From Desulfobulbaceae bacterium (GTDB lineage: Bacteria > Desulfobacterota > Desulfobulbia > Desulfobulbales > SURF-16), in assembly GCA_027859235.1 (NCBI GenBank), contig JAQIBE010000211.1:1-39596 (forward strand): DNA of 39,596 nt. Direction: 5' to 3'. Shown one piece after another: positions 29,349-39,596 of the stretch. The stretch's first letter is position 1. Each line of letters starts with the position of its first letter. A program made the translations under genes and the position numbers. The notes beneath the pieces were generated by a model. It worked only from the letters and a program-made list of their open reading frames with translations, ran no database searches and was not told where the DNA came from.

Positions 29349-29394
29349 TCCGGTGTGCTTGAGGTTCAGGGGGATTTCCCTCTTTTATAATTGT

Positions 29395-29422
29395 TTGACA
29401 AATTTGAAAAGGCTGATAGCTT
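29395..29422 (+). promoter_or_regulatory. Possible promoter for proA
   Basis: TTGACA followed after 16 bases by TAGCTT, about 80 bases before the proA start. The -35 is perfect and the -10 fair. Confidence 0.35.
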
Positions 29423-29501
29423 TTATTCTGTAAGCTGCAAGGCAGGAGTGTTCGCGCCCGTCAGTCTAAACAGCAAATCATCCTATGAAAGGAACGTGCA
29501 T

Positions 29502-30758
29502 ATGTCCATTCAAGAAACCATAAAGAAAATAGCTGTGGACGCCAAAATCGCTGCCCGTTCCATGGCAGCTTTATCCACGGCAAAGAAGAATAGGGTGCTT
29601 GAGTCCATGGCCTCTGGCCTTCTCGCGCAGACAGCTTTTATTCAAGCAGAAAACCAGAAGGATCTTGTGGCAGGTAAGGCAAAAGGTTTGTCCGCTGCCA
29701 TGCTTGATCGCCTTGAGCTCTCCGATAAGGTTATGGGGGCCATGATCGATGGCTTGCGCCAGGTGATTGCCCTGCCTGATCCTGTCGGCGAGATTAGCGA
29801 TATGAGCCGCCGCCCTTCCGGGATCACGGTTGGTCGTATGCGTATCCCCCTTGGTGTTATTGGTATGATTTATGAATCACGGCCAAATGTCACGGTGGAT
29901 GCGGCTTCGCTCTGTTTGAAGGCGGGGAACGCTATTGTCCTGCGGGGCGGTTCAGAGGCCATTCACTCGAATCTGGCCCTGGCTCAGGTGTTGCAGGATG
30001 CGCTGCGTAGTGAAGATGTTGATCCTGCCGTGATTCAGGTTATTCCCACCACTGATCGTGATGCCGTGACCTGCATGCTGCAGATGGAAGAGCAGATTGA
30101 TCTCATTATTCCCCGGGGCGGTGAAGGTCTTATTCGTTTTGTATCTGAGAATTCCCGTATTCCCGTGCTCAAACATTATAAGGGCGTGTGTCATGTCTTT
30201 ATTGATGAATCCGCCAAGATTGAGATGGGGGTCAATATCGTTAATAACGGCAAGGTGCAGCGTCCTGGTGTCTGCAATGCCCTTGAGACCTTACTGGTGC
30301 ATGAAAAGATTGCCGGAACCTTCCTCCCCGCTGTGGCTGAAAATCTGCTTGCGGCAGGGGTTGAGATTCGCGGCTGTAAGAAGACCTGTTCCATTATAAG
30401 GAAGGCGGTTCCTGCCACTGAGGCCGATTGGCCTATGGAGTTTCTCGAGCTGATTCTGGCGGTGAAGGTTGTCAGTTCTCTTGATGAGGCCATGGATCAC
30501 ATTGTGGCCTATGGCTCTCAGCACACCGAAGTCATTGTTACTGAAAATTACACCAATAGTCAGCGCTTCATCCGTGAGGTTGATGCCTCTGCCGTGATGA
30601 TTAATGCCTCTACCCGTTTCGCCGACGGCGGCGAGTTCGGGCTCGGCAGTGAGATTGGTATTTCCACCACCAAGCTTCATGCCTATGGTCCCATGGGCTT
30701 AAAGGAACTGACCACCAAGAAGTTCATCGTTTACGGTGATGGTCAGGTTCGGGTCTAG
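29502..30758 (+). CDS. proA: Gamma-glutamyl phosphate reductase
   Basis: NADPH-dependent second step of proline synthesis, making glutamate semialdehyde. 418 residues of the aldehyde-dehydrogenase superfamily; the catalytic Cys is in RPGVCNALETLL, with VIYESRPNVTVDAA and IPRGGEGLI also visible. The track start at 29391 adds 37 residues of no family likeness; the ATG at 29502 has AAAGGA eight bases upstream and matches normal length. Confidence 0.96.
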   Translation: MSIQETIKKIAVDAKIAARSMAALSTAKKNRVLESMASGLLAQTAFIQAENQKDLVAGKAKGLSAAMLDRLELSDKVMGAMIDGLRQVIALPDPVGEISDMSRRPSGITVGRMRIPLGVIGMIYESRPNVTVDAASLCLKAGNAIVLRGGSEAIHSNLALAQVLQDALRSEDVDPAVIQVIPTTDRDAVTCMLQMEEQIDLIIPRGGEGLIRFVSENSRIPVLKHYKGVCHVFIDESAKIEMGVNIVNNGKVQRPGVCNALETLLVHEKIAGTFLPAVAENLLAAGVEIRGCKKTCSIIRKAVPATEADWPMEFLELILAVKVVSSLDEAMDHIVAYGSQHTEVIVTENYTNSQRFIREVDASAVMINASTRFADGGEFGLGSEIGISTTKLHAYGPMGLKELTTKKFIVYGDGQVRV

Positions 30759-30819
30759 GGTATTGCGGTGACAGATCAGCTTTGCAATCACTTCATTATA
30801 AGCCTGTTGCCGGATTGAT

Positions 30820-31434
30820 ATGGCAACTACTCTTGTGAAGAAAGGTATCCTGGGCGGGACGTTCAATCCCGTTCATATTGGCCATCTCCATCTGGCTCAA
30901 GTGGCGTTACACGTCCTTGAGCTGGATCAGATTCTGTTTATTCCCTCCTCTTCACCACCCCATAAGTCAGATGCAGGTCTTTGCCCGTTTCAGCATAGGC
31001 TCGCCATGCTTGAGATCGCGGTGGCCCCCTATCCTGCGTTCTCTGTCTCGCCCCTTGAATCTTTACGGGGTGGTTTTTCCTATTCCATTGATACGTTGCG
31101 TCAGTTACATGCCGAGTCCCAGGGAAAAGAGCAGCTCTTCTTTTTGATGGGGTTTGATGTCTTTGTGGAAATGGGGTCGTGGAAGGATTATGCGCAACTC
31201 CCAGAATATGCTACCCTTGCCGTGTGTCAGCGAGAGGGAAATGATATTGCAGCGGTGGCTGAGCAATTATTCGGGGATGAGGCGTCACGTATTCAAGCCT
31301 TTGATGTCCCTGAAAAGCGGGTTTCCTCTTCTGTTGTGCGTAAGGTCTTGGAGGAAGGTCGCGGAGGGGGGCGGTCACTCCTGCCCCCGGGGGTTTGGGA
31401 ATATATAGAGGAGCATGGTCTGTTTAGGGATTAA
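30820..31434 (+). CDS. nadD: Nicotinate-nucleotide adenylyltransferase
   Basis: Makes deamido-NAD from nicotinate mononucleotide and ATP. The 204-residue product has the nucleotidyltransferase motif GGTFNPVHIGHL, the substrate loop PSSSPPHK and the late SSS motif in KRVSSSVVRKVL. The start context is weak. It lies 61 bases after proA, last gene before a repeat-containing gap (31435-31612). Confidence 0.95.
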   Translation: MATTLVKKGILGGTFNPVHIGHLHLAQVALHVLELDQILFIPSSSPPHKSDAGLCPFQHRLAMLEIAVAPYPAFSVSPLESLRGGFSYSIDTLRQLHAESQGKEQLFFLMGFDVFVEMGSWKDYAQLPEYATLAVCQREGNDIAAVAEQLFGDEASRIQAFDVPEKRVSSSVVRKVLEEGRGGGRSLLPPGVWEYIEEHGLFRD

Positions 31435-31480
31435 GACAACACCCAGAAATGTTTTGTGCGAAGCGGGTGGTCGGGGTGCC

Positions 31481-31616
31481 TAGGGGCCGTTAAGAATGTT
31501 GATCAGGTAAGCGTAGACTCCAGGTAAGCGCAGACTCCGTTGTAGCAATTTCCTTATACCCCCTCAGGCAGCTATGGACATCTCCGTGGGCATGTTAATT
31601 TGTTACAACTGCTTAA
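31481..31616 (+). repeat. Dispersed repeat, copy A (with an internal 17-base tandem duplication)
   Basis: Starts TAGGGGCCGTTAAGAATGTT and ends ACTGCTTAAC. About 117 bases align with copy B at 38794-38910 in inverted orientation; the first 20 bases are identical, and the remainder is roughly three-quarters or more identical by eye. Copy A has a 17-base unit (AGGTAAGCGNAGACTCC) twice in tandem, which explains its greater length. The 3' end covers the folE2 stop codon. It carries no coding sequence. Confidence 0.8.
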
Positions 31617-32353
31617 CACCCCATGGTGTCGCTGGTGACAATGGCGTAGGCCGAGTGCTTATGGATGGATTCGAACGATTCTACGCCAACGGAAAACCAG
31701 GTGATGCTGGGGTGTGCGCTGGCTAACCCGGCAACCTTACGCACCGCATCTTCAACAAACATGGGGTTTTCGTAGGCCTTTTCAGTGACGTATTTTTCAT
31801 CGGGTCGTTTCAGCAGTGAAAAGACTTCGCAGGAGGCCCCTGACTCAACCATGCTGATCAGATCCTCAAGCCAGATAAAATCGGAAAATTTCACATCCAG
31901 GCGTATCTCTGCCCGTTGATTATGGGCGCCATACTTGCTGATTTCCTTGGAGCAGGGGCATAATGTGGTGGTGGGGACCCACATGGACATGATGAGGTCA
32001 TCGTCATTTTCAGAGGTTCCGGTGAAGGAGCAGGTGTACTCCATGAGGCCGGCGGTCTTGGTGACGGGTGCCTTTTTTTCAATAAAATAGGGAAAGGTCA
32101 TGGTGAGTTTTGCCGAATCCGCCATGAGCTCGGTTTTCAGCTCCTTGAGCAGGGCTGGAAATGCCGGGGGGGAGATGTCATCTCCATATTTGCCCAGCAA
32201 CCCCAGCAGGGTGGATACACAATCTTCGCAAAATTGTTTTGGCGTATTAACCTGGAGGGTAATGAGGGCCACCGTGTCCTGACGTGTCCCCCCCTTCTCC
32301 CTGATTTTCACAGGGAACCGGATGTCTTTTATTCCCACATTTTTTAGATCCAT
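31613..32353 (-). CDS. folE2: GTP cyclohydrolase FolE2 (type IB)
   Basis: Converts GTP to dihydroneopterin triphosphate for folate (or deazapurine) synthesis; the FolE2 type works with metals other than zinc. 246 residues. Seen: the catalytic Cys in TTLCPCSKEIS, GAHNQRAEI, and the ending HKHSAYAI. There is no strong ribosome binding site before the ATG. It is divergent from hslR, and its last codons lie inside dispersed repeat copy A. No folE, queuosine or zinc-regulon gene is next to it. Confidence 0.93.
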   Translation of the reverse strand: MDLKNVGIKDIRFPVKIREKGGTRQDTVALITLQVNTPKQFCEDCVSTLLGLLGKYGDDISPPAFPALLKELKTELMADSAKLTMTFPYFIEKKAPVTKTAGLMEYTCSFTGTSENDDDLIMSMWVPTTTLCPCSKEISKYGAHNQRAEIRLDVKFSDFIWLEDLISMVESGASCEVFSLLKRPDEKYVTEKAYENPMFVEDAVRKVAGLASAHPSITWFSVGVESFESIHKHSAYAIVTSDTMGC

Positions 32354-32464
32354 AGTGGGGTCTTTTTACACGTTTTCTGCCGTTGGCGCGACTCTTTTAT
32401 GAACTTGCCGGATTACAGGGCTTGCGGGTTGCATAGATTAAATAATAGTGATGAAAAAGCGGGT

Positions 32465-32493
32465 TTGAGAAGGGCTGTTATTTATGGTAGAGT
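32465..32493 (+). promoter_or_regulatory. Sigma-70 promoter for hslR-purH-purN-pyrR
   Basis: TTGAGA, a 17-base spacer and TAGAGT, 38 bases before the hslR ATG. The 177-base folE2/hslR divergent gap shows no other recognisable site. Confidence 0.5.
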
Positions 32494-32530
32494 GTGTAGC
32501 TCTATAGATGATTTAAGTTAAGGGACAATA

Positions 32531-32929
32531 ATGAGTGTTCACTATGCGGATGGGGAACAGGTTCGCGTTGACAAATGGCTCTGGGCGGCTCGTTTCTTTA
32601 AGACACGCTCGCTGGCTGCCAAAGCGGTTTCGGGCGGTAAGGTTCATTTGAATCATGGGCGGGTGAAAGCGGCAAAGGGCGTAAGAGTTGGCGATTGTCT
32701 AACCATTACCCGCCAGCATATTGAGTGGGTGATTGATGTGGTGGCCCTAGCGGAAAAACGGGGACCGGCAGCCTTTGCCCAGACCCTCTACGTGGAGCGA
32801 CCTGAATCCCTTGCCCATCGGGAACAAACCCGGGAGAGCAGGAAATTTGCCCATGCAGGTCATGTGCAGCCCCCTCAGCGTCCATCCAAGAGAGATCGGC
32901 GGCTTATTCGGGAATTTACGAGAAAATAA
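32531..32929 (+). CDS. hslR: S4-domain RNA-binding protein Hsp15 (HslR)
   Basis: 132 residues with an S4 domain at the N-terminus (VRVDKWLWAARFFKTRSLA and KVHLNHGRVKAAKGVRVGD) and a basic C-terminal tail rich in Arg and Lys. In E. coli Hsp15 binds 50S subunits that still hold a peptidyl-tRNA after stalling. The start follows AAGGGAC at good spacing. purH begins 23 bases after the stop, so the two are probably one transcript. Confidence 0.92.
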   Translation: MSVHYADGEQVRVDKWLWAARFFKTRSLAAKAVSGGKVHLNHGRVKAAKGVRVGDCLTITRQHIEWVIDVVALAEKRGPAAFAQTLYVERPESLAHREQTRESRKFAHAGHVQPPQRPSKRDRRLIREFTRK

Positions 32930-32952
32930 CTATAATAAAATAAGGATGAATC

Positions 32953-33567
32953 ATGAAGAAAGCAGAAAGGGCATTAATCAGCCTCACCGATAAATCTGGC
33001 ATTGAAGGGTTTGCCCGTGAGCTTGAAGCATTGGGTATTGAGATATTGTCCACTGGTGGAACCGCAGCAAAAATGCGTGCTGAGGGCATTGCGGTGAAAG
33101 ATGTCTCTGAATTCACTGGTTTTCCTGAGATGCTCGACGGCCGTGTCAAGACCCTGCACCCAAAGGTGCATGGCGGTATTCTGGCTCAGAAGACCAATGC
33201 GGATCATGTGGCGCAGATGCAGGAGCATGGTCTGCAGGCAATCGATATTGTAGCGGTTAATCTCTATGCCTTTGAGAAGACGGTTGCTGATCCTGCCTGT
33301 ACACTGGCCAATGCCATTGAAAATATTGATATTGGCGGGCCCACCATGCTGCGCGCCGCTGCCAAGAATTATCAGGATGTGACCGTTATCGTTGATCCTG
33401 CGGATTACCCCATTGTGGTGAGTGAACTTAAGGCAACCGGTAATACAACCCTGAAGACCCGTTTCAAGTTGGCCCGCAAGGTGTTTGCCCTGACCTCCGC
33501 CTATGATACCGCCATTATCCAGTGGCTTGATCAGGTTGATGCAGATAAACATCCGGAGTTGGTGTAG
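32953..33567 (+). CDS. purH: IMP cyclohydrolase (PurH N-terminal domain only)
   Basis: Closes FAICAR to IMP, the last step of purine synthesis. The 204-residue product contains the MGS-like domain ([53 protein letters not shown]). The AICAR transformylase domain of ordinary bifunctional PurH (about 520 residues) is absent: the stop is followed by only 95 non-coding bases before purN, with no remnant. Stand-alone cyclohydrolases are known in some anaerobic bacteria, with the transformylase elsewhere. AAGGA precedes the ATG. Confidence 0.93.
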
Positions 33568-33662
33568 CCAGCCGAGAACTGTGAGGGGAAGGGCATCATG
33601 AATTTCTTCCATGCCGAACCTCTTACATCTCATCCCTCACCCTTAGTAACGAGGCATAACCC

Positions 33663-34250
33663 ATGAAAATGGCTGTTTTACTTTCAGGCAGTGGCCGCAC
33701 CTTGGATAACTTCCATGAGCGTATTGCTGCAGGCACCATGCAGGGGTCCATTGAAGTTGTTATCTCCAATGTTGAAGGGGCGCTTGGTCTTACAAAGGCT
33801 GAGAAGTACGGCTACCCCGCCTTTTATTGTCCCACAAATGCTGAGATCAATGATTTGCTGGCAAAGTATGATGTGGATTTGATTCTCCTTGCCGGGTATC
33901 TCAAGCTGTACACGCCGCCTGCAACCTTGAAAAAGGCAGTCCTGAACATTCACCCCTCCCTCATCCCGGCGTTCTGCGGGGCCGGCTTTTATGGCATGCA
34001 TGTGCATCGGGCGGTGAAAAGACGTGGGGTAACCGTCACGGGTTGTACCGTGCATTTTGCCAATGAGGTGTACGACGAGGGGCCAATTGTAGTCCAGACT
34101 CCCGTGTCTGTCGCTGATGACGATACCCCCCAGATGATTGCTGATAAGGTTTTTGCTGAGGAATGCAACGCCTTTCCCGAGGCCATTAACCGCGTGCATG
34201 ACCTTGGTATTGATTATTTCTGGGATCGGACCATGGGAGGGGATGAGTAA
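33663..34250 (+). CDS. purN: Phosphoribosylglycinamide formyltransferase (PurN type)
   Basis: Folate-dependent formyl transfer to GAR, third step of purine synthesis. 195 residues. Seen: VLLSGSGRTLDNF, the catalytic triad region with HPSLIPAF (AsnxHis pair NIHPSL) and GVTVTGCTVHFANEVYDEGPIV. The 95-base gap before it can fold (GTGAGGG/CCCTCAC, GGCAT/ATGCC). Its stop overlaps the pyrR ATG by one base. Confidence 0.94.
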   Translation: MKMAVLLSGSGRTLDNFHERIAAGTMQGSIEVVISNVEGALGLTKAEKYGYPAFYCPTNAEINDLLAKYDVDLILLAGYLKLYTPPATLKKAVLNIHPSLIPAFCGAGFYGMHVHRAVKRRGVTVTGCTVHFANEVYDEGPIVVQTPVSVADDDTPQMIADKVFAEECNAFPEAINRVHDLGIDYFWDRTMGGDE

Positions 34251-34795
34251 TGGCAACAACCCGCACCATTCTTATGAATGCCGTAGATATTGACCGTTCC
34301 TTGCATCGTATTGCCCTGCAGATTATGGAGATGAACCGCGGGGTGGATAAGCTTGCCCTGGTGGGTATCCACACCGGTGGTGTGTTTCTCGCTGATCGTC
34401 TGCAGACCATTATTCGGCAGCAGGAACAACGTGAGGTTCCGGTGGGTTCCCTTGATATTACCCTCTATCGTGATGACTGGACGCAGATTGCCCAGCTCCC
34501 CATTGTTAAGACCACAGATATTCCCTTTGCAGTTGAGGGGTGGACTATTATTCTGATTGATGATGTACTGTATTCAGGACGGACGATTCGCGCGGCCCTG
34601 GACGCTATCATGGATATTGGTCGCCCGCGCTCTATTGAGCTGGGTGTTCTCATTAATCGTAAATGCGGCCGTGAACTGCCTATCCAGGCGAATTACGGCG
34701 GTATGGATGTCATGGAATCCCGGAATGAGCATGTTCATGTCTTGCTCAAAGAGAAATTTGGTTGTGATGAGGTTATTCTCGAATCCCATGACTGA
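34250..34795 (+). CDS. pyrR: PyrR bifunctional pyrimidine regulator / uracil phosphoribosyltransferase
   Basis: 181 residues with the PRPP-binding motif in VILIDDVLYSGRTIRAAL and the PyrR N-terminus ILMNAVDIDRSLHRIA. In Gram-positive bacteria PyrR binds pyr mRNA leaders to cause attenuation; here it may do that or serve mainly as UPRTase. No PyrR-binding leader is visible nearby. GGGAGGGG lies upstream of the start, and the ATG overlaps the purN stop. A hairpin (34832-34854, GTCTCTT/AAGAGAC) follows without a T tract. Confidence 0.93.
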   Translation: MATTRTILMNAVDIDRSLHRIALQIMEMNRGVDKLALVGIHTGGVFLADRLQTIIRQQEQREVPVGSLDITLYRDDWTQIAQLPIVKTTDIPFAVEGWTIILIDDVLYSGRTIRAALDAIMDIGRPRSIELGVLINRKCGRELPIQANYGGMDVMESRNEHVHVLLKEKFGCDEVILESHD

Positions 34796-34905
34796 CCATA
34801 ACGTAGCTTGCTGGAAAAATTGTACTGGTGGGTCTCTTTATTAAAAGAAGAGACAGCTTCCCATCATGATGCTGCATGAACCATTTTTTAATGGAGAAGG
34901 CTAAT

Positions 34906-36243
34906 ATGGCAGGAAGTACAAAGGAGCATTTACTTACGAGGATTACCGCAAAGGGGGGAGATTATGCCCACCATCATTTCACCCAGGCCCAGGATGGGAT
35001 TTTAAAGACCTTTTTTGATCTGGTTCATGAGTATGACACCCTTGAGGATTATTACACGATTTGTGTGCTGACCTTAAAGCAATCCATGGATGTGGAGTGT
35101 CGGTTGTATCTCAATGATCAGCATGGTGATTTGAAACTGGTGCGGGCCAGTGATCTTGACGAGTCCTTTCCGGTAACTGCCCCAAGTCATATCCAGGTCC
35201 AGCATGAGACCATTGATCTTGATGGTTCTTTGTTCTTTCCCGTATATATGGGGCCATTGCGCACCAACGAACAGGTACCGGTGGGTATTCTCCAGGTTAC
35301 CCCTGGCCAGCCCCTCTCTGAACAAGAGCAGTTTTTTATATCCATTTATGCAAACCGCATCGGCATAACGTTAAATGATAAGGTGTCTGCCTGTCAGAAT
35401 ATACAGCATATTAAGTTTGTCCAGGGTCTGGTGACAGATATTGAGCATAATGTCATCATTCCTAATATGTATTTCAGACATCTCTTCAAGAAGTTGCGGC
35501 ACAACATTGATGTAATGGGTGAGTTGAAAGATGCCATTCTCTCTCAGCAGGAGGACCTGGGCGTTGCGGATAATAAGTCGTGCAGGGAGATCGTTGCAAA
35601 GGTTGCCGCATTGCATGACTCCTTTCTGAGCCATCACAATGAGCTGGAGAAACATCATGCCAGCAGTTCCTTGTTCATTGAATCATTGTTTCGGAAGGAT
35701 CATTTTGACCGGGGTGAATTGGTTCTGCGGCCGAAAAAATGTTTTGTCGAGCAGGAGATTATTGATCCCCAGCTTGAGCATTTTGCCAACCGTTTCAAAC
35801 ATCATAATATTGTGGTGCGGCGTCCTGCAGATATGCGTGATGAAGAGATTGCCCTGAACGTTGACATTGGACTGCTGGCGCAGGTGTATGCGAATCTCTT
35901 TTCCAACGCCTTGAAATATGCCAGTGTCAGCGAAGGTAGTGTGGATAATGTTAAGCTTGTGGCCTATGGCCGGGAGTATGTCAGCGATTGTTTTGGTGAA
36001 GGTCGCGGGGGGGTAAAGTTTAATGTCTTTTCAACGGGACCCCACCTCTCTCCTGCTGAGGCGCAATTTGTTTTTGATGAAGGTTTTCGTTGTGATAATG
36101 CCGGGTTTCAGTCCGGCAAAGGTCATGGTCTGGCGTTTACTCGCCAGGTGGTTGAAATCCATGGAGGCCGTGTGAGTTATGAACCGGTGGCAGGCGGCAA
36201 TAATTTCTGCTTTTACCTCCCCCTGGCGGTTGATGAAACGTGA
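34906..36243 (+). CDS. Soluble histidine kinase-like protein with a GAF-like sensor domain
   Basis: About 445 residues from the ATG at 34906, chosen because GGAGAAGG sits five bases upstream; ATGs at 34876 and 34891 lack this. There is no membrane segment. The N-terminal half (about 25-165) looks like a GAF domain. A helix with DIEHNVIIPN carries the likely phospho-His. An HATPase_c domain follows with N-box FSNALKYAS, an unusual D-box (FNVFSTGP, Ser-Thr-Gly in place of Asp-x-Gly) and a glycine motif SGKGHGLAFTRQ. No response regulator lies beside it. It is downstream of pyrR, probably with its own control, and ends at a strong terminator. Confidence 0.75.
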   Translation: MAGSTKEHLLTRITAKGGDYAHHHFTQAQDGILKTFFDLVHEYDTLEDYYTICVLTLKQSMDVECRLYLNDQHGDLKLVRASDLDESFPVTAPSHIQVQHETIDLDGSLFFPVYMGPLRTNEQVPVGILQVTPGQPLSEQEQFFISIYANRIGITLNDKVSACQNIQHIKFVQGLVTDIEHNVIIPNMYFRHLFKKLRHNIDVMGELKDAILSQQEDLGVADNKSCREIVAKVAALHDSFLSHHNELEKHHASSSLFIESLFRKDHFDRGELVLRPKKCFVEQEIIDPQLEHFANRFKHHNIVVRRPADMRDEEIALNVDIGLLAQVYANLFSNALKYASVSEGSVDNVKLVAYGREYVSDCFGEGRGGVKFNVFSTGPHLSPAEAQFVFDEGFRCDNAGFQSGKGHGLAFTRQVVEIHGGRVSYEPVAGGNNFCFYLPLAVDET

Positions 36244-36274
36244 TGCACTGTTGGGTAGGATTGAAGAGTTGCAG

Positions 36275-36312
36275 CCCCTTTAAATTCGCAATGTTTTTAA
36301 GGGGTTTTTTTT
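36275..36312 (+). terminator. Intrinsic terminator after the soluble kinase gene
   Basis: CCCCTT/AAGGGG stem (extendable through A/T pairs) followed by eight T. A strong rho-independent signal. Confidence 0.85.
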
Positions 36313-36381
36313 ATGGTCGTTCCGTATGCTGCATGCGGTTTGGAGAAGTTTGAAACACTGCCCTGATCTTGTCGAGTTGTG

Positions 36382-36409
36382 AAAGACGTCTTTGGGTAGA
36401 AATTATAAA
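36382..36409 (+). promoter_or_regulatory. Palindromic operator-like site and possible -10 upstream of the U32 gene
   Basis: AAAGACGTCTTT is a perfect 12-base palindrome, 45 bases before the ATG. A TATAAA follows at 36404, where the -35 would overlap the palindrome. Suggests a regulator site, unproven. Confidence 0.35.
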
Positions 36410-36437
36410 ATATGAAAAATAAAATTGTTGTTAATTT

Positions 36438-38612
36438 ATGAAACTTGCACAAGATATTCTCCCTGAACTCCTTGCCCCTGCCGGCTCCATTGAAGTTTTT
36501 GAGGCGGCTGTGGATGCCGGTGCCGATGCCATTTACATTGGTGCACCAAATTTTAATGCGCGAAATCTCGCCCACCATTTTTCGGTGGCTGAGGTGGCCT
36601 CCATGATTGATTTCGGCCATGCCAACGGGGTCAAGGTGTATCTTGCCGCCAATAGTCTGGTGCGTCAGGATGAGCTGGCTGAAGTCTGTGATATGCTTGC
36701 CATGTGTGATGCCCTTAAGCCGGATGCGCTCATTGTTCAGGATCTGGGTCTGTATCAGATTGGTCGCGAACATTTCCCAGACTTGGAATTTCACGCCTCA
36801 ACCCTCATGCTGGCCCATAACCATTACGGGGTCAGGCAGCTGGCCAAGATGGGGTTCCCCCGCGTGGTGCTGGCGCGGGAGCTGACCTTGCCTGAGATTC
36901 GCCGTGCCTGCCGGGAAGAGGCGGAGATCGAGGTGTTTGTCCATGGTGCCCTATGTTTTGCCTATTCCGGGCTATGTCTGTTCTCCAGCTACCTCGGTGG
37001 CCGTTCGGGGTTACGCGGACGCTGCGTCCAGCCCTGCCGTCGTCTGTACAGTCATGAGGATGTCCCGGGATCCTCCCGGAGCCGCAAAGAAAAGGGGTAT
37101 GATTTTTCCATGAATGACCTCTCCGGTATTGAAATGGTGCCGGATCTTGTGGATGCCGGTGTAGCCTCCCTGAAGATTGAAGGACGCATGCGTTCCATCC
37201 ATTATGTGGCGTCAGTGGTGAAGGCCTACCGCTTGGCCCTGGATAATCTGGATGATTTTGCAGCGGTCCTGCCCGAATGTAAAGCTCTCATTGCTCAGTC
37301 CATGGGGCGGACGCCAACAGGAGGGTATTTTGCTGGTGCAAACCCTGAGGATGCCTTGGCGCCTCAGCAATCCGGTAATATCGGCACCCTGCTGGGTCGA
37401 GTGGGTAAGCATGATGGTGGCTGGGCCGAGGTTAAACTGAAAGATGATGTGGAGGTGGGCGATCGTCTCCGGGTGCATCAGGAACGCTCGGGGGAACGTG
37501 TTTCCCTCACCTTGAAAAAGATGAAGGATCGTAACGGGTTGGTTGCCAAGGGTCTGAAGGGGTGGAAGGTTACCCTTGACTTTGGAGATCGTGAGCTGAA
37601 CCCCGGTGATGTTGTTTATAAGGTGGATGTGAAGGGACGCCGGGTTAAGGCTAAGTTTATTCGACCCGCTGATTTTGAATATGTGGAGGATACCCTGCGC
37701 GAGGATAACCGTTCGACATTGATCTATAAGCAGCTTGGTTTGAAGACGATCCCCCGTCGTTCCAAGAAGAAAAAGAAGGGGAGGGGTGGCGATGATGCTT
37801 ATGTCCCCCCTATTTGGCTGCGCAGTGATAATTGGCAGGTGGTGAATCTTGCCCGGGAAATCAGACCTGAAAAGGTGGCGCTGGCCCTTGATCGGGAGAC
37901 CCTCTCCCATGTGTTCAGGGAGAAAAAGGGGGTAAGGAGTATGACGCGAGTTCTGGTGTGGAGTCTGCCTCCGGTTATTCTGGAGGATGATCTTGATTTC
38001 TACACCAAGGCGTTGCAGGCTCTCATTGAACTGGGGTTTTACCAGTTTCAGATTGGTCATCTTTCCCAGATCGTCATGCTCCGTGAGATTCACAAGGGGA
38101 TAAAATTACCACGGCAGAAGAGACTGGTTCTGTTCGGCGGTTATACCTTAAATATTCTCAACAGTATGGCCCTGGTTGCCCTGCAGAAAAATGGGGTAAT
38201 GCAGACCGCCGTATCCATAGAAACAGATCTTGATAATCTGAAACTCCTGGCCCATAATCGCGGGACCAGCCGCATTGGTATGGAGGTTTACGGTCATCCG
38301 CCCTTATTCACCAGCCGTCTGCAATCTTCCCATTTGCAGCCCGGCAAGGTGCTGACCAGTCCCCGTGGCGAGGATCTGGTTCTTGCTGTAAGGGGCGGGC
38401 AGACCGTGGCCTATTCCCCTGACCCTTTTTCCCTGTTTGGCCAGATTCATGAGCTGAGCAAGATGGGGATTGATTTTATGGGAGTGGATATTTCCGGCGA
38501 GAAGTTAAAACGGCGGGATCTCCTGGCCCTGGTTGGGAAAGTGCAGAAGTCGAGCAAAGGCAAGCGCCGCGCAGATGAGAACTCGTTTAATTTCAGGCTG
38601 GGATTGAAGTAG
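36438..38612 (+). CDS. U32 peptidase-family protein (RlhA/TrhP-like RNA hydroxylation factor)
   Basis: 724 residues. The N-terminal U32 domain shows ELLAPAGSIEVFEAAVDAGADAIYIG and the Cys-rich signature EVFVHGALCFAYSGLCLFSSYLGGRSGLRGRC...QPCR. In E. coli the large U32 proteins (RlhA, TrhP) help hydroxylate 23S rRNA or tRNA and use these Cys for an iron-sulfur cluster; true proteolysis is doubtful. The C-terminal half (from about 300) has a DUF3656-like barrel region, a Lys-rich insert (KKKKKGRGG near 445) and a second TIM-barrel-like part. It is monocistronic with a palindrome in its upstream region. Confidence 0.87.
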   Translation: MKLAQDILPELLAPAGSIEVFEAAVDAGADAIYIGAPNFNARNLAHHFSVAEVASMIDFGHANGVKVYLAANSLVRQDELAEVCDMLAMCDALKPDALIVQDLGLYQIGREHFPDLEFHASTLMLAHNHYGVRQLAKMGFPRVVLARELTLPEIRRACREEAEIEVFVHGALCFAYSGLCLFSSYLGGRSGLRGRCVQPCRRLYSHEDVPGSSRSRKEKGYDFSMNDLSGIEMVPDLVDAGVASLKIEGRMRSIHYVASVVKAYRLALDNLDDFAAVLPECKALIAQSMGRTPTGGYFAGANPEDALAPQQSGNIGTLLGRVGKHDGGWAEVKLKDDVEVGDRLRVHQERSGERVSLTLKKMKDRNGLVAKGLKGWKVTLDFGDRELNPGDVVYKVDVKGRRVKAKFIRPADFEYVEDTLREDNRSTLIYKQLGLKTIPRRSKKKKKGRGGDDAYVPPIWLRSDNWQVVNLAREIRPEKVALALDRETLSHVFREKKGVRSMTRVLVWSLPPVILEDDLDFYTKALQALIELGFYQFQIGHLSQIVMLREIHKGIKLPRQKRLVLFGGYTLNILNSMALVALQKNGVMQTAVSIETDLDNLKLLAHNRGTSRIGMEVYGHPPLFTSRLQSSHLQPGKVLTSPRGEDLVLAVRGGQTVAYSPDPFSLFGQIHELSKMGIDFMGVDISGEKLKRRDLLALVGKVQKSSKGKRRADENSFNFRLGLK

Positions 38613-38700
38613 GGGGATGGGATGGCTCCCTTCTTGCCGTCTGTATTGTTTTTCCCCAATGACTGGTACCGCTGTCTTGTTGAATGGAACCCCTTGTAAC

Positions 38701-38791
38701 GTTTACGGTTTACGGTTGCCAGTTTACGGTTCAAGGTAAAATGCATCAGATAACGTCAACATCCACGAACTGTAAACGGTAAACTGGCAAC
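38701..38791. repeat. Inverted repeat with GTTTACGGTTTACGGT units
   Basis: GTTGCCAGTTTAC (38715-38727) is inverted at 38779-38791, and the ...GTTTACGGTT... unit occurs several times nearby. It is a hairpin-forming, non-coding repeat directly next to dispersed repeat copy B. It may be an extragenic palindrome (REP-like). Confidence 0.6.
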
Positions 38792-38793
38792 TG

Positions 38794-38910
38794 GTAAGCA
38801 GTTGGAAAAAATAACATGGCCAATGAGATGTCTATAGCTGCATAAGGGGCCGTAAAAAAATGATATAACGGAGTCTGCGCTTACCGGATAAACATTCTTA
38901 ACGGCCCCTA
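38794..38910 (-). repeat. Dispersed repeat, copy B (inverted relative to copy A)
   Basis: The reverse complement starts TAGGGGCCGTTAAGAATGTT, like copy A. Inside it a 66-base core (38844-38909) has inverted ends AGGGGCCGT and ACGGCCCCT, so it can fold as a hairpin. It has one copy of the 17-base unit that is doubled in copy A. The 38613-39028 gap contains this repeat and the adjoining inverted repeat, and no gene. Confidence 0.8.
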
Positions 38911-39028
38911 ACTTGTTGGAGTGACAGAATATTGTTTGTGTTCTCTCTAAGTTAGGTTGAAGTTGGGTGGTAATCATATATACTTATAGATGTGCAGGAC
39001 TCATCTTAAAATTCATCTGGGGCGTGGT

Positions 39029-39596
39029 ATGCTTGAAACCCTTTTTACTCCAAAATCCATAGCCGTGATTGGTGCCTCAAGGTCAGCGGCAAAGGTTGGC
39101 GCCATTGTGCTGAATAATCTCATTGACGGAGGTTTTTCAGGGCAGATTATCCCGATTAATCCCTTTACCTCTGAACTATGCGGGTTGGCCTGTTATCCAT
39201 CGTTACGTGAGTCCGGTGCTGAGGTTGAGCTCAGTGTGGTGGCCGTGCCGAAGGATTTGGTGGAACAGGCGGTGCGTGATTCGGTTGCGGGTGGGGCACA
39301 GGTTATCATTATTTTATCCTCCGGCTTTCGTGAATCAGGGGCATAGTGCAGGATTCTTGAGGAAAAACTGGTAGATTACTGTACGAAGCGCCGTGTGCGG
39401 CTGGTGGGCCCGAATTGCCTCGGGGTGATGAATACCCATGGCCTGCTCAATTGCTCTTTTTTAGGTGAGCTTCCCCTGGCCGGGAATGTGGCCATTCTAT
39501 CCCAGTCCGGTGCCCTTTGTTCTGTGCTGGTTGATTTGGCGCTGGATAATCATCTTGGTCTTTCCCGGGTGATCAGTATGGGCAATAAGGGGGATG
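39029..39596 (+). pseudogene. Acyl-CoA synthetase (ADP-forming), CoA-binding part, interrupted by in-frame TAG; 3' truncated by window edge
   Basis: From the ATG at 39029 the frame reads LFTPKSIAVIGASRSAAKVG, a Rossmann CoA-binding start, then SVVAVPKDLVEQAV and SSGFRESGA, where TAG (39344-39346) stops it. The same frame goes straight on with ILEEKLVDYC, LVGPNCLGVMNT and AILSQSGALCSVL to the window end with no further stop. This is the normal continuation of the NDP-forming acetyl/acyl-CoA synthetase family. The residue at the stop is usually acidic or polar, so a GAG-to-TAG change is likely. It could be a nonsense mutation, a sequencing error or readthrough. The track start at 38990 is less likely than 39029. 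Confidence 0.8.

Follow-up and report, generated by a model that had tools for sequence, protein, structure and literature searches.

Two palindromes facing each other across a 7-kb gene block in a Desulfobulbaceae genome are ordinary copies of a high-copy repeat family

The window analysed here, 39,596 nucleotides from a Desulfobulbaceae bacterium (contig JAQIBE010000211.1), holds two palindromic sequences, copies A and B, that face each other 7.3 kb apart across a block of metabolic genes. The locus raises the question of whether this pair can invert the block, as a first-pass annotation proposed, and of what kind of sequence the two copies are. The facing arrangement itself is real, with 41-nt arms that are 93% complementary and 29-nt arms that are 90% complementary. 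We find that copies A and B are ordinary members of a palindromic repeat family that is non-coding, non-autonomous and present in high copy number.

The feature first noticed was a core with mutually inverted ends, and in copy B these ends are exact reverse complements, AGGGGCCGT at 38845-38853 and ACGGCCCCT at 38901-38909. The core spans 65 bases rather than the 66 claimed and is not the natural unit; it is the second of two hairpins in the 114-bp copy B, and the unit is the entire repeat of 114-117 bp with both hairpins (Table 1). The interval 38794-38910 originally assigned to it lay near the true unit, but the real target TAA occupies 38795-38797 and the element 38798-38911. Folded as single-stranded DNA, copy B reaches -17.1 kcal/mol (z = -3.24), a value equalled by 0 of 200 shuffles. 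Copy A, one end of which had been described as worn, is indeed degenerate; its loop holds a second 17-bp unit and it folds no better than shuffles (z = +1.65). However, its end GGGGGTAT is also found in several further copies (e.g., L016 and L023-L026), so that this end is in part an inherited variant.

Table 1. Features of copies A and B and their surroundings in the window.
Feature	Position	Strand	Basis
Copy B, 114-bp palindromic repeat	38798..38911	+	matches ~98 genomic copies; ends from alignment
Target TAA (GGTAA), left of copy B, part of host repeat	38795..38797	+	flank joining
Hairpin I of copy B (GCAG...CTGC)	38798..38841	+	single-strand fold; covariation across 18 relatives
Hairpin II of copy B (AGGGGCCGT...ACGGCCCCT), the feature first noticed	38845..38909	+	fold z -3.24; covariation
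17-bp microunit CGGAGTCTGCGCTTACC, loop of hairpin II, copy B	38869..38885	+	100 exact genomic 16-mers, reversed control 0
Host repeat, upstream part, entered by copy B	38690..38794	+	common to many loci around 34 host-repeat matches
Host repeat, downstream part CTTGTTGGAGTGACAG...GGTAATCATAT	38912..38985	+	34 genomic matches
Copy A, same repeat, facing copy B	31480..31612	-	arm complementarity; whole-genome model search also recovers copy A
folE2 TAA stop codon, target of copy A	31613..31615	-	open frame ends there
Two tandem microunits in copy A (CGGAGTCTGCGCTTACC TGGAGTCTACGCTTACC)	31506..31539	-	sequence inspection; 16-mer count
CGGAGTCTRCGCTTACC sites	38869-38885, 31506-31539; also L330, L332, L333, L339		

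BLAST with copy B alone returned 41 matches in the genome, a draft of 2.85 Mb in 333 contigs. A sequence model built from 31 copies returned 124; 26 of these are the second part of a copy that has multiple loop units, and they were merged by hand. The genome-wide search for the core suggested at the outset thus yields about 98 dispersed copies, roughly one per 29 kb. Among the source genome and its relatives the repeat was matched in 20 of 58 genomes and 13 of 34 genera; most of these genomes are drafts and many are MAGs, and because repeats break assemblies the copy numbers are likely lower bounds. There was no match in G001, a genome of the same genus, and none in the plasmids and phages searched. 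A pattern scan of a public genome collection returned 80 stretches with MAG labels of Desulfobulbaceae, Desulfurivibrionaceae, Desulfocapsaceae, Desulfobacterales and Desulfoarculaceae; one stretch was labelled Bacteroidales (isolate set with a similar name). The usual form is 105-106 bp, TAA followed by GCCGYTGTAAAAAAATAACATGGCCA...CGGCATAAGGAGCCGTAACGAAAT...ATTTCGTAACGGCTCCTAA, and other Desulfobulbales genomes carry related 106-bp forms in tens of copies. The 106-bp form at L167 resembles the source-genome element as it would be prior to entry of the 17-bp unit into its loop. We found no earlier description of the family in the open PMC literature.

The proposal that recombination between A and B inverts the 7-kb folE2-U32 block, in the manner of a phase-variation switch, draws on their mutually inverted arrangement and 7.3-kb spacing, but the relatives speak against it. 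In G001, a genome without the repeat, the block is collinear and in the same orientation; the window from 29391 to 39596 aligns to it in five pieces, all in a single orientation, and the flanking acyl-CoA synthetase gene is also in place. proA and the block likewise stand in one orientation in G003, G004, G005, G006, G007, G009 and G013, and a single orientation was seen in all comparable relatives (G002, G008 and G010 are uninformative on orientation, their genes lying on separate contigs or being partly present). The longest exact match between A and B is 20 bp, and no recombinase gene was found among the identified genes of the block. Moreover, the facing pair is unremarkable in a genome with about 98 copies: with an average spacing of ~29 kb and copies in both orientations, many will have a neighbour no more than 7.3 kb away, and half of these neighbours should be in facing orientation. 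The U32 gene and the acyl-CoA synthetase gene are separated in G001 by a short spacer only, and so the repeats at B are probably later arrivals. In sum, we give inversion almost no credence and infer that the genes lying between A and B are bystanders, which removes a false lead, an invertible metabolic block being very unlikely here.

The family consensus reads YTAA followed by GCAGTTGTAAAAAAATAACATGGCCAACGAGATGTCCATAGCTGCATAAGGGGCCGTAAAGAAATTGATACAACGGAGTCTGCGCTTACCTGGTCAACATTCTTAACGGCCCCTAA, and both of its hairpins are maintained by compensatory change. Across 18 diverse copies the two hairpins were paired in 95.0% of cells, against 35-53% when the partner was slid by 1-3 columns as a control, and changes on both sides were seen in 6 pairs and 27 cells, against 10.4 in shuffles (in hairpin II alone, 4 of 15 pairs). 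Folding energies across the family lie 2.9 to 6.6 standard deviations below shuffles, the degenerate copy A being the exception; related copies are not independent, and these pairing and folding figures describe a trend and are not probabilities. An alternative long stem, AAATAACATGGCCA with TGGCCATGTTATTT, has 84.7% support.

Copy B lies within a second dispersed family, a host repeat with 34 matches built of TTTACGGTT...AACCGTAAA and TAACTTGTTGGAATGACAG...CTAAGTTAGGCTGAAGTT. This family is a recurrent landing place of the 114-bp repeat and supplies three sites that occur both filled and empty: GGTAA^CTTG (copy B, L059 and L060), GTTAG^GCTG (L005 and L025, with the right side of the site also in L003) and GTAAA^CTTC (L002). 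Joining the flanks of copy B gives CTGGTAA+CTTGTTGG, the same as in uninserted host repeats. Taking out GCAG...CCCCTAA recreates the empty sequence, and the insertions are exact and directly 3′ of a TAA-like tetranucleotide. The left tetranucleotides of 148 copies were CTAA (65), TTAA (33), GTAA (17), ATAA (15) and others (18), counts that are partly biased to TAA, part of the loci having been fetched by a pattern that starts with TAA. The dispersed copies, the exact insertions with empty sites and the covarying hairpins together bear out the early suspicion that the hairpin is typical of a mobile or palindromic element.

These junctions bear on whether the repeat is a classical MITE, with terminal inverted repeats, a DDE transposase and a 3-bp TAA duplication. 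Such an origin would fit the TAA found at both borders of most copies and the long subterminal inverted repeats of the 106-bp forms (AAATAACATGGCCA / TGGCCATGTTATTT). However, the sites GTTAG^GCTG and GTAAA^CTTC rejoin exactly with duplication absent; their left flanks are unlike the right-end TAA, so that no 3-bp duplication fits and one is excluded at two of the three sites. At GGTAA^CTTG, where TAA stands on both sides, a duplication cannot be excluded. The TAA counts of pattern-fetched loci are unfit for this comparison, as the pattern itself required TAA. The right end also stays TAA where the left flank is TAG (L005, L025, L014), TGA (L012, L021) or TAC (L020); at L021 the TGA is the stop of a 306-codon frame. 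Finally, the inverted ends are not flush, with about three extra bases on the right end, and flush inverted ends combined with target duplication, as in a MITE, were not found. We consider a MITE origin quite improbable.

Frames of 80 codons or more end on the left flank in 20 of the 127 copies, compared with 3 and 10 for the other reading frames. Roughly a sixth of the copies thus lie directly behind a stop codon, among them copy A behind folE2, where 250 open codons terminate exactly at the TAA. This placement, together with the conserved hairpins, would also suit an element kept for its function, for example an mRNA 3′-end hairpin or a protein-binding site, that has been spread by recombination and not by transposition. 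We regard that account as unlikely: exact empty sites within a multicopy repeat show insertion, and the same-genus genome G001 has no copies. Furthermore, no terminator or promoter signal at copy A or B clearly exceeded shuffles, and an Rfam search of 31000-39596 gave no match up to E = 1. Individual copies could still serve a function after insertion. The use of TAA stop codons as a landing place may explain why so many copies are tolerated.

We lean towards regarding the family as non-autonomous palindromes that travel as single-stranded DNA, and the anatomy of the ends suggests that the mover is probably of Y1 type (IS200/IS605 or REP-transposase). A Y1/HUH-type transposase acting in trans would recognise the hairpins of the single-stranded repeat, cut on the 3′ side of both the YTAA at the left flank and the CTAA that ends the element, and then rejoin the ends. 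Such a cut-and-rejoin reaction would account for both the absent duplication and the TAA at both borders. We infer this route from anatomy, because no Y1 locus is flanked by the repeat and the GC skew is unfavourable. Of 44 Y1_Tnp loci in the source genome and its relatives, none has the repeat at its borders (one repeat lies ~2.6 kb away), and it is likewise absent from the borders of 16 further Y1 loci; the Y1 transposase genes at these loci were rejected as parent elements, and near matches at L083, L084 and L274 proved on inspection to be chance. The search yielded no transposase gene bounded by repeat ends. Larger autonomous copies with split halves were also considered and rejected, as split copies held short inserts only, many of them palindromic; among 80 pattern-fetched copies no right end lay beyond 231 bp, and 6 had no right end within 3.5 kb or before the end of the stretch. 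G059 has a few repeat copies but no Y1 match. The GC skew of the element's top strand (mean -0.021, p 0.0015, 79 vs 51 copies) is weak and comes from copies that are not independent; its negative sign is the opposite of that for top-strand insertion into the lagging-strand template, and so the simplest IS200/IS605 strand assignment is not favoured. Because the ends and the target of this Desulfobulbales family are defined and empty sites occur naturally, its mover can now be sought.

The sole Y1_Tnp gene found in the source genome (L031) encodes a RAYT-like protein of 267 aa that matches NCBIfam NF047646 at 60.4 bits, below the cut-off of 80. It is framed by GTGGGGTCGGACCACG / CGTGGTCCGACCCGAC (178-193 and 1139-1154), apparently its own terminal repeats and unrelated to the 114-bp repeat.

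The oddest feature of the family is nested within it and poses a sharper question than the repeat that carries it. A 17-bp unit, CGGAGTCTRCGCTTACC, occupies the loop of hairpin II in one to four tandem copies. Its 16-mer is found 100 times in G000, 113 in G059, 86 in G002, 46 in G003 and 45 in G010, against 0 for the reversed control, and in several genera a genome carries about 100 of these units, in surroundings that are unrelated and palindromic. In G003 and G059 it takes the form GGAT[17 bp]TCCGG within a common palindrome that also occurs uninterrupted, as GGATTCCGGCTAAAAACATGCCGGAATGA, and in one case CGGAGTCTRCGCTTACC is an exact 17-bp insert in GGAT^TCCGG relative to the uninterrupted form. 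Seven matches of the 16-mer in viral contigs were taken as chance. We raise only tentatively, and with the balance of our judgement against it, the possibility that CGGAGTCTRCGCTTACC is itself mobile or actively templated, entering hairpin repeats of unrelated families by exact insertion and then multiplying in tandem; if true, few known insertion units would be as small. Other inserts were also seen: a 27-bp palindromic unit, CTCTTTTCAGTACCCCCTTGAGGGGTA, is present between the hairpins in other genomes as a single copy or a tandem of two or three (L131, L132, L145, L173), and a ~55-bp insert related to GTCGCTCCTACGCCGTCCATGGCGCTCGCGACACTGGGCCATCCCTGGCCTGCG is found at differing points of the repeat in KA05 and Desulfocapsa (L168, L170, L187, L213).

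Two neighbouring genes are unusual in their own right. An in-frame TAG at 39344-39346 breaks the CoA-binding / acyl-CoA synthetase gene (start at 38990); the frame continues past it, and the G001 gene has no stop at the matching position; the TAG is a nonsense mutation, an assembly error or a case of stop-codon readthrough. The purH-like frame at 32953-33567 encodes just 204 aa, an MGS domain together with positions 1-64 of the AICARFT/IMPCHase model, and so lacks most of the AICAR transformylase part.

Among known systems, integron attC sites were rejected as a candidate, the ends TAAGC...CCCCTAA being without GTT/AAC core sites. A design of two hairpins flanked by tetranucleotides has been described for IS200/IS605 and REP systems (PMC6006769). 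Like IS200/IS605 passengers (TnpA Y1, HUH), the repeat has two imperfect hairpins, inserts 3′ of a short fixed tetranucleotide without duplicating its target, and closes on the right in a similar tetranucleotide. It differs in that no autonomous tnpA copy with the same ends was found, in that hairpin I begins directly at the target with no guide between, and in its weak GC skew, which would point to the other strand.

The GTAG/CGTC REP superfamilies are defined by the tetranucleotide GTAG or CGTC at the foot of a 20-40 bp hairpin, and include CGTC repeats without a known transposase (PMC3733652). Membership, with movement by a RAYT, would be in keeping with the ~100 copies per genome, the paired and conserved hairpins, the frequent placement directly behind genes, the clustering with other palindromes and the one RAYT-like gene of the genome with its sub-threshold score. 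However, the hairpin feet carry no GTAG/CGTC tag in the consensus or the 31-copy alignment (TAAGCAG..., ATAAGGGG...), the unit is 106-117 bp long, and no RAYT is flanked by the repeat at the Y1_Tnp loci. We therefore think this identity unlikely and do not claim REP membership. A further difference from REP, BIME and REPIN systems is that a single 106-117 bp repeat family spans several families within one order. ERIC (127 bp) and similar intergenic palindromes are, by description, alike in size, in palindromic form and in having no internal gene; the 114-bp repeat differs from ERIC in that it inserts at YTAA without duplication.
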